A DNA stretch of 64,000 nt. It comes from Roseibium sediminis. GTDB lineage: Bacteria > Pseudomonadota > Alphaproteobacteria > Rhizobiales > Stappiaceae. The stretch lies in NCBI RefSeq assembly GCF_008711325.1, contig NZ_VXDB01000004.1, positions 124,001-188,000 on the forward strand. The letters run 5' to 3'. The notes beneath the pieces are model-generated. The model searched no databases and was not told the origin of the DNA. It worked only from the letters and a program-made list of their open reading frames with translations. Both the position numbers and the translations under genes were made by a program. Positions 1 to 8,863 of this stretch are shown one piece after another. Position 1 is the first letter of the stretch; every line of letters starts with the position of its first letter.

Positions 1-403
1 TGCTGGCCAGCAAGGCTGTCTGGATGGTTCGGTACCGTTTCGGCGTTTCGGCCAGAATGGCGGCATAGAAGATCGATGTAACTGCCAGAAAGCCGGTCAC
101 CGCGATGTAGATGACTGCATCTCCGAACTCCCTCGCCAATGGCGCTGCTGCAATCCCGCCCGTCGTATAGAGCATCATGCAGACGATAAGCGGTCCGAAC
201 TCGCGTCGCAGTCTCAAGCCACAGGCTAGCCAGACAACGGAGAGAAAGACCAGATACAGCTCATAGGGAGCAGGTTCGCGAATAACGAAACCGGAAAGGA
301 AAATGGCAAGCCAAAGCGCGCCGTTTCCAAGCGCATAGGTCGAAACGAAGTAGCCGGGGTCACCCGGATGGCGGGTGCCATATGTTTCGGCCGCAAGGGT
401 CAA
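1..403 (-). CDS. O-antigen ligase/polymerase-like membrane protein, N-terminal part (cut by window edge)
   Basis: A leftward reading frame stays open from a TTG at 403 to the window edge (about 134 codons), so the C-terminal part is missing. The TTG overlaps the TGA of the upstream sugar transferase, which implies translational coupling. The translation is strongly hydrophobic with about four membrane segments (around residues 25-45, 48-66, 72-90 and 96-118) separated by short charged turns. The position downstream of a polyprenyl sugar transferase and a glycosyltransferase fits a Wzy/O-antigen-ligase type polymerase of an exopolysaccharide locus. The diagnostic ligase domain lies outside the window, so the family is inferred from topology and context; another polytopic membrane protein is possible. 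Confidence 0.5.
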   Translation of the reverse strand, partial: MTLAAETYGTRHPGDPGYFVSTYALGNGALWLAIFLSGFVIREPAPYELYLVFLSVVWLACGLRLRREFGPLIVCMMLYTTGGIAAAPLAREFGDAVIYIAVTGFLAVTSIFYAAILAETPKRYRTIQTALLAS

Positions 404-1992
404 TACGCGTTCTCCGTGTTCAGGAGCTTGAACGGCGTCATCAGGAGGATCTTGAGGTCAAACAGGATCGACCAGTTCTCGATGTAATAGACGTCGCACT
501 CGACACGCTTCTGGATCTTCTCCGGGGTGTCCACTTCACCGCGCCAGCCATTGATCTGCGCCCATCCGGTCACACCGGGCTTCACCTTGTGGCGGGCAAA
601 GTAGCCGTCAACCACTTCATCCCAGGTCTTGTTGTCCGTATGGGCATTGACGGCGTGGGGGCGGGGGCCGACGAGCGACAGGCTGCCAGCCAGCACGTTG
701 AAGAGTTGCGGCAGCTCGTCAATCGAGGTCTTGCGGATGAACCGGCCGACGCTCGTGACGCGAGGATCGTTCTTCGTCACGACCTTCTTGGCATCCGGAT
801 CGGCCAACTCGGTATACATCGAGCGGAACTTCAGAACTTCAACGATCTCGTTGTTGAAGCCGTAGCGCTTCTGGCGGAACAGGATCGGTCCCTTGCTGTT
901 CAGCTTGATCGCAATGGCCGTCCCGATCATCACGGGGGTGAGTGCGACAAGCGCCAGTGTGGCAAAGAAGAGGTCGAACACCCGTTTGGCTACGCCGTCC
1001 CAGTCGGCGATGGGTTTGTCCACCATGTCGACAAAGGGAACCGTGCCGATGAACGATGCGCCACGGCTACGGAACCGCGCTTTGTCTGTGTGGGCTGACA
1101 GGCGAATGTCGACCGGGAGAATCCAGAGTTTGGCAAGCAGCTGCAGGACGCGCTGTTCGGCGCGCAGCGGAATGCAGACGATCAGCATGTCGACCCGAGC
1201 GCGGCGAGCAAACTCGATGAGAGAGTTGATGTTTCCAAGCTTGGGATAGCCTGCAACGACGGGAGGGGACCGGTCATTGGCGCGATCATCGAAGATGCCG
1301 CAAATGCGGATATCGTTGTCGCTCTGGGCTTCCAGCTCGTGGATCAGTTCTGCTGCCGCCGTGCCTCCGCCCACAATGACAGCGCGGCGCTCGAGGCGTC
1401 CCTGCGTCATCCAGTGGCGCACGCAGAAATAGACTCCGGTCCGGAACAACGTCATGCCGATCGCGGTGACCATGAACCAGAACCCAATCCAGTCAAGTGA
1501 CGCGACTTCGCCAAACGGTGTTGTTGTGTGCAGGCCGATCATCGTACCGAAAGCCAAGGCAACCGCGGCCAGAACACGGCCCAGCTGCGAAACACTTTGG
1601 CGCATCACCGACACCTGATAGGCATCCGCAGCCTGCATGAATGCCAGAGCCAAGAGCGTGGTAATGGCAATCACGCTGGCGAGCCGCAGATCCGTTCCAA
1701 TGACATCCAAGTAGCTGATGCCGGATCCAAGAGCACCAAATACAAGAATGCAAAGGTCGGTAAAGCGTACCGTGCCTGCCAGAACCTGCACAGAAATGCC
1801 GTCGTCGCGAAGCGAATCCGCAATTTCCTGCGCCTCCGGCGAAAGGAGGTGATCAACCTCCGGGTCGACGTTTCCGGTTTTCCATGACGGGTTTTCAACA
1901 CTCGCCTGCAGCCTGCGCTGGAGGGCCAGCGCGGGGTTGGGGGCCGGCGGTGGTGCTTTTTGATCGAGTATTTCGCGGGCTGAAATGGTCAT
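400..1992 (-). CDS. Undecaprenyl-phosphate hexose-1-phosphate transferase (WcaJ/ExoY-type initiating sugar transferase)
   Basis: This 530-residue membrane enzyme would start polysaccharide repeat-unit synthesis by transferring a sugar phosphate from a nucleotide sugar to undecaprenyl phosphate. Four N-terminal membrane helices (about residues 75-190) are followed by a Rossmann-like segment with [14 protein letters not shown] (about 205-220) and a fifth hydrophobic helix (about 340-365). The C-terminal bacterial sugar-transferase domain carries [30 protein letters not shown] and [16 protein letters not shown], which are the family catalytic blocks. Size and N-terminal helices make it WcaJ-like rather than the short ExoY form. 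It overlaps the upstream glycosyltransferase by 4 bases (ATGA). The sugar (glucose or galactose) cannot be read from the sequence. Confidence 0.93.
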
Positions 1993-3221
1993 CGGATTTG
2001 TCGTGTTTTGGCGAAATAGGATTGTGTATGCGATGCGACGTCATCGACCGCTTTATCTGTACGAGCGTCATTGCTGGGAACGGGATGACCCCTGAGCTCC
2101 TTGTAGAGATCCGTGATCCGCTCGCTCATGAGATCGGCGGAAAAGGTCTCTGCCAGACAAGAACGTAGCCCCTTGGCGGTGCGTGCCATGTCCTGGGAGT
2201 TCGACAAGGCCTGGAGCATGGCAGCGGTCAAACCGCCAAGATGCCCCGGCTCGACCAGCCGATCGGCGTATTTGCCGAAGACTTCAGGAATGCCGCCGAC
2301 ACGGGTAGCGATCAGCGGCCGTTCTGCGGCGATCGTTTCCAGAACGATATAGGGCATCGCTTCAGCGCGAGAGGGAACGACCACTGTCTTTGCAAGCTGC
2401 AAGGCCATGCGATAGGGCATGGCGCCTTGAAAGGTGACCTTCTCCTCAAGCCCATAAGTATGGACCATTCGCCGATAGCGGTCCTCATCCGGCCCTTCGC
2501 CAACGATACGTGCTGTTGGAGCGGTGCCTGTCGCGAGCTTGATGTTGTTGAGGGCCTCAATGAAGAGATCCGTGCCCTTGAGGTCACGCAACATGCCGAT
2601 GAACAGGAAGTCTACAGCGTCAGGACCAACTGAAACAGGCGAAAATTCCTCGGGCTTCAATCCGTTATAGACGACGCGGCTTGATGCGGTCGGGAGGCAG
2701 ACCTTGCTCTCGAAGGCTGCCCTTTCATAGTCCGACACGAAGACCAGACCGTCGGTCATCCGGCTGAACAGACGCTCAAGCGTGTGATAAACGCGGCCCT
2801 CGATCCGGTTTGGATCATAATGAAGGCTGCCGCCATGCGGAGAATAGAGACGCGTGACGTCCTGTCCCTTCATGCGAAGGATTGATCCGATGATGCGGCT
2901 GTAGGCGCCACCCTTGGCGCCATGACCGTGGAGGACATCGGGCTCAAGGTTGCGAACATGATTATAGAGGGCGTGTGCGGCCTTGAAATCCGCGACCGAA
3001 AGCTGGCGCTTCATTGGAAAGCGGCCAATGCCAAGGCTCAGCCGTGGACGCAACTCGTCCAGCAAGGCGTTGTCGTATGTGCTGCCCGTTGAACTGTCGC
3101 AGATCAGTCCAACTTCGTGTCCCTGATCAACCTGACATTCGGCCAGGTCCCGGATATGGCGAAAGATGCCGCCAATGGGCGATCGGACACAATGGACAAT
3201 CCGAAGCGTGTTCGTTGTCAT
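1989..3221 (-). CDS. GT4-type glycosyltransferase for exopolysaccharide synthesis
   Basis: This 410-residue cytosolic enzyme has a GT-B fold: an N-terminal Rossmann domain beginning LRIVHCVRSPIGGIFRHIRD with the glycine-rich acceptor loop, and a C-terminal GT4 domain. The C-terminal half holds DFLFIGMLRDLKGTDLFIEA, the donor loop RIVGEGPDEDRYR, and the retaining-GT signature EAMPYIVLE (E-x7-E). It lies between the export lipoprotein and the initiating sugar transferase, so it probably adds a later sugar to the lipid-linked repeat unit. The donor and acceptor are not predictable. The last 30 residues are polar and weakly conserved-looking. Translation of the sugar transferase is coupled to its 3' end. 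Confidence 0.9.
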   Translation of the reverse strand: MTTNTLRIVHCVRSPIGGIFRHIRDLAECQVDQGHEVGLICDSSTGSTYDNALLDELRPRLSLGIGRFPMKRQLSVADFKAAHALYNHVRNLEPDVLHGHGAKGGAYSRIIGSILRMKGQDVTRLYSPHGGSLHYDPNRIEGRVYHTLERLFSRMTDGLVFVSDYERAAFESKVCLPTASSRVVYNGLKPEEFSPVSVGPDAVDFLFIGMLRDLKGTDLFIEALNNIKLATGTAPTARIVGEGPDEDRYRRMVHTYGLEEKVTFQGAMPYRMALQLAKTVVVPSRAEAMPYIVLETIAAERPLIATRVGGIPEVFGKYADRLVEPGHLGGLTAAMLQALSNSQDMARTAKGLRSCLAETFSADLMSERITDLYKELRGHPVPSNDARTDKAVDDVASHTQSYFAKTRQIR

Positions 3222-3328: not shown

Positions 3329-3886
3329 TCAGAAATACCGTTCTCGCACGTAGATTGTGTCGCCGGGCCGGATCGGGTCCGAAATGGGAACACGTCCGTT
3401 TATGATTTCACCATTGATCTGACGGGTGACATCGACATCGGCTTGTTGCGCCCGGGTCGAGAAACCACCTGCAGTCGCGATCGCATTCTGCACCGTCATG
3501 CCGGGGACATAGTTATATTGGCCCGCGCTTTGCACCTCACCCATGACAAAGACCGGGCGATAGGTATCCACTTCAACAGAAACATCCGGATCACGCAGGT
3601 AGCCCTGCTTCAGCTTCCGGGCAATTTCGGTTGCCAGCTCTTGCTGTGTCATGCCGCGTGCTGCCACGCTGCCGATCAGGGGGAAGGAAATATATCCTGC
3701 TTGATCAATGGTATAGGTGTTGGAGAGGTCGTTTTGGCCGAACACGAGGATGCGCAGCCTGTCGCTGGAGTCCAGCTGATAGGGCTGAGTAAGGATCTCA
3801 TGAAACGCGGTGGGTGGGCGCTTGTATCCGCTGCATGCGGTCAGCAGCCCGCACACAACCAAAACAAGGAACGCGCGAAACGACAT
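3329..3886 (-). CDS. Polysaccharide export outer-membrane lipoprotein (Wza/ExoF-type)
   Basis: This 185-residue protein has a lipoprotein signal (MSFRAFLVLVVCGLLTAC, lipidated Cys18), so it should sit in the periplasmic leaflet of the outer membrane. Residues about 30-110 form the poly-export domain (YQLDSSDRLRILVFGQNDLS, with the GYISFPLIGSVAARGMT strand pair), followed by one SLBB-type repeat (about 112-165, PVFVMGEVQSAGQYNYVPGMT). It is about half the length of Wza, which has two SLBB repeats and a long C-terminal amphipathic helix, and so resembles the short alphaproteobacterial form. It is the first gene of the leftward set and is divergent from the ExoP-like gene, its expected inner-membrane partner. 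Confidence 0.92.
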   Translation of the reverse strand: MSFRAFLVLVVCGLLTACSGYKRPPTAFHEILTQPYQLDSSDRLRILVFGQNDLSNTYTIDQAGYISFPLIGSVAARGMTQQELATEIARKLKQGYLRDPDVSVEVDTYRPVFVMGEVQSAGQYNYVPGMTVQNAIATAGGFSTRAQQADVDVTRQINGEIINGRVPISDPIRPGDTIYVRERYF

Positions 3887-4083: not shown

Positions 4084-6405
4084 ATGAGCACTGCGCGTAA
4101 CGCAGACTATGATCCTGATATGGCGCTGGACCTCGGCGGAATCGTTCGTGCGATTTTCCGCTCGTTGTTCTGGTTGTTGCCGCTCATTGTGCTTGTCTGC
4201 ATGGGCACGCTTTTTGTTCTCCAGTTCGTTCCGTCCAAATACAAGGGTGAAGCACGTCTTCTTATAGAGAGTAAGGAGTCGGAGATCCCCGGCGGGTCGC
4301 GCGGTGTTGAGGTCGAACGTGCGGTTCTGGACAGCGAAGGTGTTGCCAGCCAGGTGCAATTGCTGAAATCAGCCGATCTTGCACGCAAGGTCGTCCGCAA
4401 GCTGGATCTCGCTTCCATTGAGGAGTTCAATGCCGACAAGAGCGATAAGCTTTTTAATCGTCTGCTGATCGAGGCGGGGCTTGATCGTCAGCCGCTTCCT
4501 TCCACGGTCGAGGAACGTGTCCTCAAGCACTACTACGAGAACCTCGCGATCTATCGTCTTGAGGATTCCCGCGTCATTGCGGTCGAATATTCCGCTGAAG
4601 ACCCTCAGCTTGCAGCGCTCGTTGCCAACACCATCCTGGATGAGTACATCGCGCTGCAGTCATCGGCGAAGCGTGAAACAACGGAAGTGGCAGCATCTTC
4701 TCTGGAACCGCAGATTGCCCAGCTGGAAGATGAGGTCCGGGTAGCTCAGCAGGCCGTCGAGGATTTCCGTGCTCAGGCCGATCTCCTGATCGGCACCGAC
4801 AACGTGCCGCTGGCCCAGTCACAGCTCGCCGAGATCAGCAGCGAATATTCTTCAGCTCAGGCCTCCAAGGCAGAAGCACAGGCAAAGGCAGACCTCATTC
4901 GCGAACTTCTGAATTCCGGCGGGTCGCTTGAGACGGCTTCGGAAGTTCTGGAATCCCCGTTGATCCAGCGTCTGCGCGAGCGTCAGGTTGCCATTCAGTC
5001 GAATATCGCGGAACTCTCCATCACGCTGCTGCCGAACCATCCGCAGCTGCGCGCCCTGAACTCGCAGCTCAGCGACTATGATCGCCAGATCAGGTCCGAG
5101 GCTCGCAAGGTGCTGCAGGGATTGGAAAACAATGCAAAGGTTGCCAGTCAGCAGGCGAGGGCGCTTGAAACGCGGCTGAACGAGCTCAAGCAGGAAGCTG
5201 CGAAATCGAACGACGATCTGGTGCGCCTGAGCGAACTGCAACGCGTGGCAAATGCCAAGGCATCGCAGCTTGAATCAGTCATGGCAAAGTTCCGTGAGGC
5301 TGACACCCGGTTGCGGTCACAGGTTCTGCCTGCAGATGCGCGGATCATTTCCCGGGCCCGCGTCCCGGTCGAGGCTTATACACCCAAGGTATTTGCAACC
5401 ACGGTCATCGCCGCCCTCATCACGTTCCTGCTTGGCTGCACATTGGTATTGATGCGCGAGTTTCTGTCCGGCCGCGCCGTCCGTCAGGTTTCCTACGGTG
5501 GCCACCGTGGGGCACGTTCGTCCGAGCCGCCCGAAGTTGTTCGCCAATGGATCGAGGAAGACGAGCGCCGTGATGATCGCTCCAGACGAAGAGCACCGTC
5601 ACGAGAAGGAGCATCCGCAAGGGACAGTGCGTTCGCGCCGACCGGATACGGGTTCTATTCTGCCAGCAACTACGATTTGTCGCCCCAGCGGGGCGATCGC
5701 GCTGAAAGCCATGTCTCTGACCTGAAGCCGCAATCCGAGGCCGCACAGGATAATGGCAAACTGAGTGGTATGGCTGCCGCCCTGAAAGCTGCTGACGAAA
5801 TGATGGCTGCCGGTCCGAAGCCGACCCGCAAGAAGGATGAATACGTCCTTCCCGAAGGCCACGAGATCAATGGACGTTATGTTGTCTTGAGCGTTGATGA
5901 GCCTGATGTTTCACACGCGGTAGCCTTCGAATTGGCTCGCTCTGCCGCAATGGCCGGCAGGTCAGCGGTCTTTGTCGAGGTCTTCCCGGAAGACATCGAT
6001 CCCGATGGAGCGCCGGGCTTCTCCGATCTGGTGGCCGGTGAGGAAGTGTTTTCGAAGGTGATCTACCGGGATTCCAAAACCAATGCCCACATCATCGAGG
6101 CGGGGACAGTGCCGATCACCGATGAAATGGCAAAGGACGAACGGTTCGGTCGGGCGCTTGAGGCTCTGGCCAAGACACATGATGTCGTTGTCATTGATCT
6201 CGGGGCGATCGACGGGTCTCAGGCCAGCGCCAACATCCTTGGCTTTGCCGAGCAGGTGATCATCGGTGCAAGCTCTGATGAGTATGCGCAGGATCTTTCC
6301 GATGCCGCGAAGGTGCTGAAACTGAACACGGGCAACAAGGTCGACATTCTGTATCAGCCGAAGAAGGCCAGCGGTCGTGGACGCGGCCCCGGATACGCTG
6401 CCTGA
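4084..6405 (+). CDS. ExoP/GumC-type polysaccharide chain-length protein with degenerate tyrosine-kinase domain
   Basis: This 773-residue inner-membrane protein has the Wzz architecture: TM1 (about 24-45), a large periplasmic part with long coiled coils (about 190-400) and TM2 (about 437-460) after the proline-containing SRARVPVEAYTPK segment. It would control chain length and couple synthesis to the divergent Wza-like exporter. A low-complexity linker (about 465-590) leads to a C-terminal domain aligned with the BY-kinase/ExoP ATPase (about 593-760). The Walker A loop expected after YVVLSV is replaced by DEPDVSH (605-611) with no GKS/GKT, and the Tyr-rich C-terminal tail is absent. A Walker A'-like strand VVVIDLGAI (701-709) remains. 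The catalytic function is therefore probably lost. The ATG at 4084 begins just upstream of the hydrophobic TM1. Confidence 0.9.
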   Translation: MSTARNADYDPDMALDLGGIVRAIFRSLFWLLPLIVLVCMGTLFVLQFVPSKYKGEARLLIESKESEIPGGSRGVEVERAVLDSEGVASQVQLLKSADLARKVVRKLDLASIEEFNADKSDKLFNRLLIEAGLDRQPLPSTVEERVLKHYYENLAIYRLEDSRVIAVEYSAEDPQLAALVANTILDEYIALQSSAKRETTEVAASSLEPQIAQLEDEVRVAQQAVEDFRAQADLLIGTDNVPLAQSQLAEISSEYSSAQASKAEAQAKADLIRELLNSGGSLETASEVLESPLIQRLRERQVAIQSNIAELSITLLPNHPQLRALNSQLSDYDRQIRSEARKVLQGLENNAKVASQQARALETRLNELKQEAAKSNDDLVRLSELQRVANAKASQLESVMAKFREADTRLRSQVLPADARIISRARVPVEAYTPKVFATTVIAALITFLLGCTLVLMREFLSGRAVRQVSYGGHRGARSSEPPEVVRQWIEEDERRDDRSRRRAPSREGASARDSAFAPTGYGFYSASNYDLSPQRGDRAESHVSDLKPQSEAAQDNGKLSGMAAALKAADEMMAAGPKPTRKKDEYVLPEGHEINGRYVVLSVDEPDVSHAVAFELARSAAMAGRSAVFVEVFPEDIDPDGAPGFSDLVAGEEVFSKVIYRDSKTNAHIIEAGTVPITDEMAKDERFGRALEALAKTHDVVVIDLGAIDGSQASANILGFAEQVIIGASSDEYAQDLSDAAKVLKLNTGNKVDILYQPKKASGRGRGPGYAA

Positions 6406-6438: not shown

Positions 6439-7584
6439 TCAAGAGGCCTGATCGTGCCCGCGTGCCATGAGGCGCCGCGCCTTGCGAATGCCTGACCAAA
6501 GGGTCGGGGAATTGCGAACTCTCGTCTTCAGGCGGGTCTTGGCACGGTCGAGTGCAGCCACAGCTTTCCCCTTGGCAGACACGGCGAGATAACAGTCGGA
6601 CAGAGAGGCCGGTTCGGTCCAGCCATGTTTGTATCTTTCATCGCCAAGTCCGAGGTCGAGAAACCGGATGGCAGGATCAGCACACGCGTATCGGATGATT
6701 TCCATCAGCAAGACGATACCGGGGCTTTGCGGAAAGAACTCGTCATGAGCAAGGCTGTTGGCGTACCCAAACAGAGTGTCGCCTTGACGAAGGCACAGGT
6801 AGGTTGCGCGCGGTTCGTCGGCGACATCCAAGGCCCATGCCTGAAATGTGAGTCCTTCCTGATCGATTGAGGCAAGGGTCTTCAAAAATTCCTGCGATGC
6901 CTCATCCGAAAAGGCATTCGGAATACCGGTCAGGCTCTCCCGGCGTGCTCTCTGGTCGAGGAAGATATCCAGAATGGCGTTCGTCTCGCTCGGGGTTGAG
7001 CCAAGTCGCACCCTGTATCCACCAGCCTCTTCCAGTGCCCGTTTCTTGCGCTGAAGCTTCTTGCGTGTCGCCTTGCTCTGTGTCGCTTTGAAAAATGCGT
7101 CGAAATCGTCGGTCACTTCGCCGACAAAGATCATGCTGGGGCTTTGTGTCGCGGTCTCAAGAAGAAGAGGGTGTTGGCGCTCGTGCCACGTGTCTGGGAT
7201 ATTTTGAAGCGATATCAGGTTCGCACCTGTGTGCTGCGCGATGTCCGCAAGCAGCCGTTGCGCGGTTTCTCCGGTCATTTCCTGATAGAAATTCTTCGCC
7301 CACACGCCCGTATTCTGGTTTCCTTTATCTGCTCCGAGAAAGCTTAGTTCGCGGATGCCCATGCGACGTGTCAGTTGAAAAGGCAGGAGTCCAACAACTG
7401 TGCCCTCCTGCAGGATGACTGCTATCCTGCATTCCGGTACCTTGGACTTGCGGGCAGCTGCCGTGTAGGATAAACACCATCCTACTGACTGATAGGGAGA
7501 AAGTAGCGCATCGCCGGAAAGAGCGCCCCAATAGCCGGTCGCTGCCTCAACGCTCTGTTCAATCCTGATCTGGAAGCTTGTCAA
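6439..7584 (-). CDS. CelD/BcsL-type GNAT acyltransferase (FemAB-like fold)
   Basis: This 381-residue soluble protein matches the layout of the acetyltransferase family linked to cellulose and exopolysaccharide synthesis: an N-terminal alpha/beta GNAT-like half (DALLSPYQSVGWCLSYTAAA), a basic linker with KATRKKLQRKKRALEEAGG (about residues 168-186), and a C-terminal GNAT half (LFGYANSLAHDEFFPQSPGI, then RFLDLGLGDERYKHGW). The FLDLGxGDExYKxxW block is typical of the family. It may acylate a sugar residue or a lipid-linked intermediate. It converges on the ExoP-like gene with 33 bases between stops and is divergent from the polysaccharide deacetylase. Substrate and acyl donor are unknown. Confidence 0.85.
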   Translation of the reverse strand: MTSFQIRIEQSVEAATGYWGALSGDALLSPYQSVGWCLSYTAAARKSKVPECRIAVILQEGTVVGLLPFQLTRRMGIRELSFLGADKGNQNTGVWAKNFYQEMTGETAQRLLADIAQHTGANLISLQNIPDTWHERQHPLLLETATQSPSMIFVGEVTDDFDAFFKATQSKATRKKLQRKKRALEEAGGYRVRLGSTPSETNAILDIFLDQRARRESLTGIPNAFSDEASQEFLKTLASIDQEGLTFQAWALDVADEPRATYLCLRQGDTLFGYANSLAHDEFFPQSPGIVLLMEIIRYACADPAIRFLDLGLGDERYKHGWTEPASLSDCYLAVSAKGKAVAALDRAKTRLKTRVRNSPTLWSGIRKARRLMARGHDQAS

Positions 7585-7753: not shown

Positions 7754-8863
7754 GTGAGCGAGATGGACAGACGCCACAGGGTGTTTAAAAGCGGCTTAAA
7801 ACTGCTGAATGTCAGCGGTCTTGGCCGTTTTTTGGCTCCTGTCACCCAAGGCTGTGGTGCCGTTTTCATGATGCATCACGTGCGCCCGGCATCCGACAAC
7901 GCCTTTCGGCCGAATGCCCATCTCTCCATTACGCCAGAGTTTCTGCGCTTTTCGGTCAACCGAATTCGCGAAAAGGGCTACGAGATCCTGCATCTTGATG
8001 AAGCAGTGGATCAGCTGAAGACCGGCTACGGTAGCAAGAGATATGCTGTTCTGACCTTTGACGATGGCTACCGGGATAATCTTGAAGTTGCCTATCCGGT
8101 CCTGAAGGAGCTGGACGCGCCTTTCTCTGTTTTCGTTACCAGCGGACTGATTGATCGCACCAGTGAACTCTGGTGGGTGGCAATCGAGCGCCTTGTTGCG
8201 GAAAACAGCGAGTTGGTTATCAGCGGACAGAGCGGGGAAGGGCCCATAAGTTGCGCAACGCCGGAAGAGAAAAATCGGTGCTTCGACCGTCTGATGGATA
8301 TTCTGGGCAAGGATGTTCAGGAGCCGGATCAACGTGCGATCACTCGGGCGCTGGCTGAACGTTATGGTCTGGATCTTGGTGCGCTTGCCAATGAATACAT
8401 GATGACATGGGATGAGCTGCGCGAACTGGCCGCTGATCCTTTGGTCACGATCGGGGCGCACACCCATGACCACTTTGCATTGGCGCGCTTGTCCGAGGGC
8501 GATGCCTGGGCCGATATCGACAAGGGCATGCAGCGCATTGAGCAGGAACTGGGGCTGCGGCCAAGGCATTTCGCCTATCCTTATGGAAAGGCGTTCTCAG
8601 TCTGCGATCGGGATGCCGACTATCTCGAACGGTCCGGTTTCTCGTCTGCGCTGACGACGTTCCCGGGAGTCCTGAACTCGGCCAGTGCGCGGACCCCGAT
8701 GAAACTGCCGCGCATTTCACTGAACGGCCTCTACCAGACCAGCGATATTCTCGACCAGTATCTTACAGGCGCGCCATTTGCGCTCTACAAGGCCGCCAAC
8801 TGGCTTGCGGGCGGGTTCGGGATCAAGTCGTCTTTTTCCCGCCTCTTTCCATCCACCAGATGA
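7754..8863 (+). CDS. Polysaccharide deacetylase (NodB-homology, carbohydrate esterase 4)
   Basis: This 369-residue protein carries the NodB metal-binding signatures: LTFDDGYRDN (about residues 96-105, catalytic base and metal Asp) and IGAHTHDHFALARL (about 234-247, the two metal His), then HFAYPYGK near 275. It should remove N-acetyl groups from a sugar polymer. No signal peptide is evident, so it may act on lipid-linked precursors or be exported another way. The start is a GTG at 7754, and an in-frame ATG three codons later (7763) is an alternative. The gene is divergent from the CelD-like acyltransferase, suggesting shared control of polymer decoration. Its last 41 bases overlap the opposite-strand DUF2842 gene. 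Confidence 0.9.
   Translation: MSEMDRRHRVFKSGLKLLNVSGLGRFLAPVTQGCGAVFMMHHVRPASDNAFRPNAHLSITPEFLRFSVNRIREKGYEILHLDEAVDQLKTGYGSKRYAVLTFDDGYRDNLEVAYPVLKELDAPFSVFVTSGLIDRTSELWWVAIERLVAENSELVISGQSGEGPISCATPEEKNRCFDRLMDILGKDVQEPDQRAITRALAERYGLDLGALANEYMMTWDELRELAADPLVTIGAHTHDHFALARLSEGDAWADIDKGMQRIEQELGLRPRHFAYPYGKAFSVCDRDADYLERSGFSSALTTFPGVLNSASARTPMKLPRISLNGLYQTSDILDQYLTGAPFALYKAANWLAGGFGIKSSFSRLFPSTR

Follow-up and report, generated by a model that had tools for sequence, protein, structure and literature searches.

Current models of PCP-2 polysaccharide exporters require a phosphorylation cycle. The active PCP-2a kinases S. meliloti ExoP and E. coli Wzc share their domain order and fold with the polysaccharide co-polymerase (PCP) described here; ExoP, however, carries DEGKS, IDAD and a Tyr-bearing tail, all three of which are missing from this protein. 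PCPs joined to a BY pseudokinase, SMc01795 of S. meliloti among them, are listed in PMC12004946, which cites Cuthbertson et al. 2009, and the class is therefore a known one, to which we add a further member and an order-wide survey. In the account given in PMC12004946, EcpK, which acts with EpsV in the Wzx/Wzy pathway of Myxococcus xanthus, has a BY-kinase fold, lacks both the Walker motifs and the Tyr tail, and is proposed to be a phosphorylation-independent scaffold. The same source pairs the Caulobacter pseudokinase HfsB with the PCP HfsA for a polar polysaccharide adhesin. EcpK and HfsB are stand-alone proteins, whereas here the domain and the PCP are encoded by a single ORF; unlike EcpK, this domain retains the Asp of Walker B. 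The architecture is that of the SMc01795 type, a PCP-2 and a motif-poor BY-kinase domain without GKS in one chain and in the same gene order, with a clade-specific loop and tail as the differences. We conclude that this is the PCP of a UPP-type adhesin locus, and that its BY-kinase-fold domain is most likely a non-catalytic scaffold.

The protein lies in a window of 64,000 nucleotides from Roseibium sediminis, the whole stretch of DNA that was analysed. The 773-aa ORF (4084..6405, + strand), a PCP of the 2a type joined to a BY pseudokinase domain, matched Wzz at 3.4e-8, over the cut-off; the GNVR match (9.3e-4) was under Pfam's cut-off, and the TIGR01005 match (2.6e-86, 290 bits) was under that model's cut-off of 411.7. 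Two hydrophobic TM segments (about residues 19-52 and 434-462; 4138..5469, +) were found in hydropathy windows and border the periplasmic Wzz/GNVR and coiled part, as in PCP-2 proteins. A cytoplasmic linker of variable length follows (5491..5871, +), and then the BY-kinase-fold pseudokinase domain at about residues 597-757 (5872..6354, +). Landmarks of the domain are GRYVVLSV from residue 597, DEPDVSH from residue 605 (nucleotide 5896), GFSDLVAG from residue 645 and VVVIDLG from residue 701.

The genes encoded alongside are likewise those expected around a PCP-2. An undecaprenyl-phosphate glucose phosphotransferase (PHPT) of the WcaJ/HfsE/UppE type (400..1992, - strand) scored 460 bits with TIGR03023, over the cut-off, and 351 bits with HfsE, under that model's cut-off of 750. 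Profile searches also identified a GT4 glycosyltransferase (1989..3221, -), an OPX outer-membrane export protein (Poly_export/SLBB; 3329..3886, -) that is of the UppC type by position and family, an Acetyltransf_6 (GNAT) protein (6439..7584, -) and a polysaccharide deacetylase (7754..8863, +). In the 18 loci checked for neighbours, an OPX gene adjoined the PCP gene in 17, a PHPT gene was nearby in 16 and COX15 was present in 16. Judged by family and gene order rather than against Agrobacterium sequences, the uppC-type OPX and uppE-type PHPT neighbours mark the locus as the conserved UPP (unipolar polysaccharide) adhesin type, and the polymer made by the Roseibium locus is presumably a UPP. The hfs and upp genes are treated as distinct clusters in PMC12727192.

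In S. meliloti Ak57 a matching gene order surrounds LZK74_22825, which has no GKS and is 38% identical to this PCP over residues 12-470; by its position rather than its tag, LZK74_22825 is probably SMc01795. The initial annotation had called the protein ExoP-like. That holds in the general sense, but the S. meliloti ortholog is the PCP of the upp locus, ExoP keeps its GKS, and the present protein goes with the UPP/SMc01795-type locus, not with the succinoglycan (ExoP) group. As a side observation, CP090106.1 (L066), the 3.7 Mb S. meliloti record that contains LZK74_22825, is labelled pSymB but carries rplM/rpsI and looks like a chromosome.

Over its last 181 residues the protein matched BY-kinase models weakly but consistently: E=3.1e-5 with TIGR01007 and E=1e-5 with TIGR01005, each far under the family cut-off, and E=2.6e-4 with BceF in the PDB. 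The Pfam AAA_31 match of the domain (E=0.047) was under its cut-off. An AF2 model of residues 579-773, made from nine sequences, was of moderate quality (mean pLDDT 73, pTM 0.74), and the remaining four models scored 52-61. When this model was searched with Foldseek, the best 50 rows were all BY-kinase chains (Wzc, CapAB, BceF, VpsO, Etk), with a best E-value of 1.9e-8, values of about 2e-8 to Wzc and CapAB, and TM scores by query length of about 0.6-0.7. VIA comparisons, which cover structures ranked by Foldseek, matched VpsO at Z 17.3 over 179 residues (rmsd 3.2) and Wzc at Z 16.4 over 184 residues (rmsd 5.0); MinD/ParA-type ATPases followed from Z 14.0 downward, and BceF had Z 12.9. As far as a model of moderate quality can show, the BY-kinase fold is kept, and the first assignment of the C-terminal domain to the BY-kinase type agrees with both kinds of match.

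The catalytic motifs were compared with S. meliloti ExoP (L067), where an alignment without gaps placed SALPDEGKSIIAANFAALLAASGK over SVDEPDVSHAVAFELARSAAMAGR; this pairing was made by eye, and a MAFFT alignment agrees with it over the loop. The GKS triad of Walker A reads VSH within DEPDVSH (residues 605-611; 5896..5916, +), and many Roseibium orthologs have LSH there. IDAD of Walker A' is replaced by VEVF, so that VFVEVF (residues 629-634; 5968..5985, +) stands in place of hhhDxD and the DxD is lost. The Walker B strand VVVIDLG (residues 701-707; 6184..6204, +) retains its Asp. Of the last 30 residues two are Tyr (757 and 771), which form no cluster, and the chain ends in Ala-Ala (6397..6402, +) where the Tyr-rich tail would stand. 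The initial annotation had placed DEPDVSH in the position of the phosphate loop, had noted the missing tyrosine cluster and had proposed that the fold was kept and catalysis lost. The first two points were borne out; the third stands for the predicted fold and for the loop, and extends to Walker A', but not to the Walker B Asp, which survives.

The retained Asp, and a Lys found at the P-loop site in two of 118 relatives, could be taken to mean that the domain is still an active ATPase or kinase that uses an unusual or displaced nucleotide-binding loop. A regex search of the entire 773-aa protein found neither [GAS]xxxxGK[ST] nor any GK[ST], and a P-loop shifted to another place was rejected on this basis. 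Loop, Walker A' and Tyr tail are all gone from this protein, and the Walker-A-like regex matches seen in four of the 118 relatives all sit away from the P-loop position. We consider continued catalysis by this domain highly improbable.

The survey began with 141 proteins; we left out three that were interrupted by a contig end and eight whose last 150 residues duplicated those of another protein, which gave 130 unique orthologs. Those exceeding 650 aa, 118 in number, went into the alignment; they span 34 family codes and four named loci, and 57 of them are from the same family as R. sediminis (f1). Of the remaining 12, all shorter, three (L112, L144 and L145) seem to be truncated or broken in frame and not true domain-less proteins. 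A GK[S/T] triad at the P-loop site was found in 0/118 aligned orthologs, two of which say little (L111, probably frame-broken, and L126, gapped at the site). Of the 118, 11 retained DxD and 72 the Asp of Walker B. The two with Lys at the site (L093 and L106) lack the flanking Gly and Ser/Thr, and both keep DxD. Seven P-loop kinases in the alignment carry all these motifs. Tyr residues in the last 30 positions averaged 0.26 in the 130 orthologs versus 3-9 in 17 P-loop PCP kinases, ExoP included, which were classed as active by motif alone. Neither chance nor a sequencing artefact is a likely explanation, since orthologs share the altered loop; they share the open frame too, and a frameshift or assembly error is therefore unlikely as well. 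One ortholog, L098 (G123:C14), has a near-intact loop (GQGRTT) together with IDAD and is a possible intermediate between an active and a dead domain.

All 87 genomes of the family had a match to the PCP, although G020 and G027 matched at E 1e-21 to 1e-23 only, probably through paralogs; in the order-level sample 108 of 150 genomes matched at E<=1e-45. A rapidly built tree of 88 rows, some of them long, from which L111 was omitted, has a branch (SH-aLRT 100) that separates 78 orthologs (70 with a dead domain, 8 domain-less) from nine P-loop PCPs and the own-genome paralog. The motif loss is old and common to orthologs sampled across the order rather than peculiar to this protein. Some relatives may nevertheless bind nucleotide, given the Walker B Asp in 72/118 and the Lys with DxD in L093 and L106.

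Ten close pairs within the genus gave domain dN/dS values of 0.008-0.120; the periplasmic part gave 0.010-0.063 and the fast-evolving linker 0.133-0.330. In seven of the ten pairs the domain was below the periplasmic part. Across nine sequences, 65 of the 195 residues of the domain stretch were invariant. Such strong purifying selection implies that the domain is kept for something. A decaying remnant without function was judged very unlikely from these dN/dS values and from the invariant residues, even though several lineages have discarded the domain and kept most of its neighbours. PCPs without it, about 470-550 aa long, were found in the family groups f41, f34, f12 and f9, some of the short ORFs being uncertain as domain-less cases, and its absence took at least three changes on the tree. 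At three f41/f34 loci (L176, L177, L181) the domain was missing and most neighbours were kept. Since several lineages do without it, the domain cannot be a universal requirement.

A search for the GNAT gene found it at 12 of 15 loci with the domain and at 0/3 without it. This distribution, and a conserved clade-specific loop (LSH, EVFPE, YRD) that resembles a binding site, would fit a domain regulated by another ligand or partner, such as a c-di-GMP effector or the neighbouring GNAT protein, instead of a plain scaffold. The three domain-less loci, however, represent two lineages only, the binding is putative and the link to c-di-GMP is conjectural; we regard regulation of this kind as doubtful.

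A separate BY-kinase acting in trans was rejected after a search of the R. sediminis genome, in which no TIGR01007 match was over the NCBIfam cut-off. Besides the domain itself there were five matches: MinD (the best, 59.7 bits), RepA and ApbC, which were over the cut-offs of their own models, and two ParA-like proteins, which were under theirs. The TIGR01007 cut-off is a strict one, passed in 8 of the 87 family genomes, with 19 further places scoring 75-107 bits. The genome has four matches to the low-molecular-weight phosphatase model LMWPc, three of them over the cut-off.

On the model of EcpK and HfsB, a phosphorylation-independent scaffold role in PCP assembly is the most likely function of the domain. 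In the proposed mechanism, the pair of TM helices, together with the periplasmic part, would work with a Wzy polymerase and with the OPX exporter encoded by the neighbouring gene. The cytoplasmic domain, a BY-kinase fold without the normal ATP-binding loop and Tyr tail, would hold and time the PCP ring through contacts with subunits or partners, with no need of phosphorylation; the same has been proposed for EcpK/EpsV and HfsB/HfsA. That ATP is no longer bound, that a ring is assembled and that the domain is a scaffold are our inferences. The earlier suggestion of a structural or regulatory pseudokinase in polymer export fits the fold of the model, the motif loss, the purifying selection and the export neighbourhood. 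Relatives sampled across the order seem to operate this conserved adhesin locus with no phosphorylation cycle, and some of them have dispensed with the domain. Set against active PCPs, these natural variants, in which the domain is dead, near-intact or absent, may indicate what the kinase fold does besides catalysis.

The Ala-Ala end of the protein was conserved among its orthologs. It was present in 95 of the 130 unique orthologs, with Ala at position -1 in 116 and at -2 in 102, while at -3 no residue exceeded 24; the AA ends use all 16 codon combinations. In crude ORF sets, this gene was the only one in the window to end so (0/46 others), and 1/78 ORFs flanking eight loci did. All four domain-less f41 PCPs also end in Ala-Ala. 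According to PMC4433202, CtrA of Caulobacter is marked for proteolysis by its terminal alanines, and S. meliloti CtrA is probably similar. As a speculation, the Ala-Ala of the PCP is a possible proteolysis signal, and regulated proteolysis through it (a ClpXP-type signal) might have replaced control by phosphorylation. We hold this replacement to be unlikely. The signal is putative; Ala-Ala was the majority end in only 41 of 72 genus groups and was found in 0/3 domain-less f34 proteins. The GKS-bearing S. meliloti ExoP ends in Ala-Ala as well, which weakens a strict link between this end and kinase loss. The C-terminus nevertheless offers a testable alternative control signal. A fuller version, in which kinase control was lost early across the order, the domain was kept as a pure scaffold and Ala-Ala proteolysis now controls the ring, is improbable; if true, turnover and not phosphorylation would set ring disassembly, and some lineages could have discarded the kinase fold and retained the Ala-Ala. 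Among the titles and abstract openings searched, no report of an order-wide loss or of the Ala-Ala end was found.

The sole other PCP match in the R. sediminis genome is a 694-aa protein (L002, G000:C23:88481-89818) whose C-terminal part has no Walker A. This second PCP is present in 17 of 45 genomes of the genus, with Walker A in 0/15 copies inspected. NCBIfam matched only its PCP part, and the C-terminal part would be of the BY-kinase fold by its pattern of residues. In the tree it lies, on a long branch, on the side of the P-loop PCPs, which suggests a second, independent loss.
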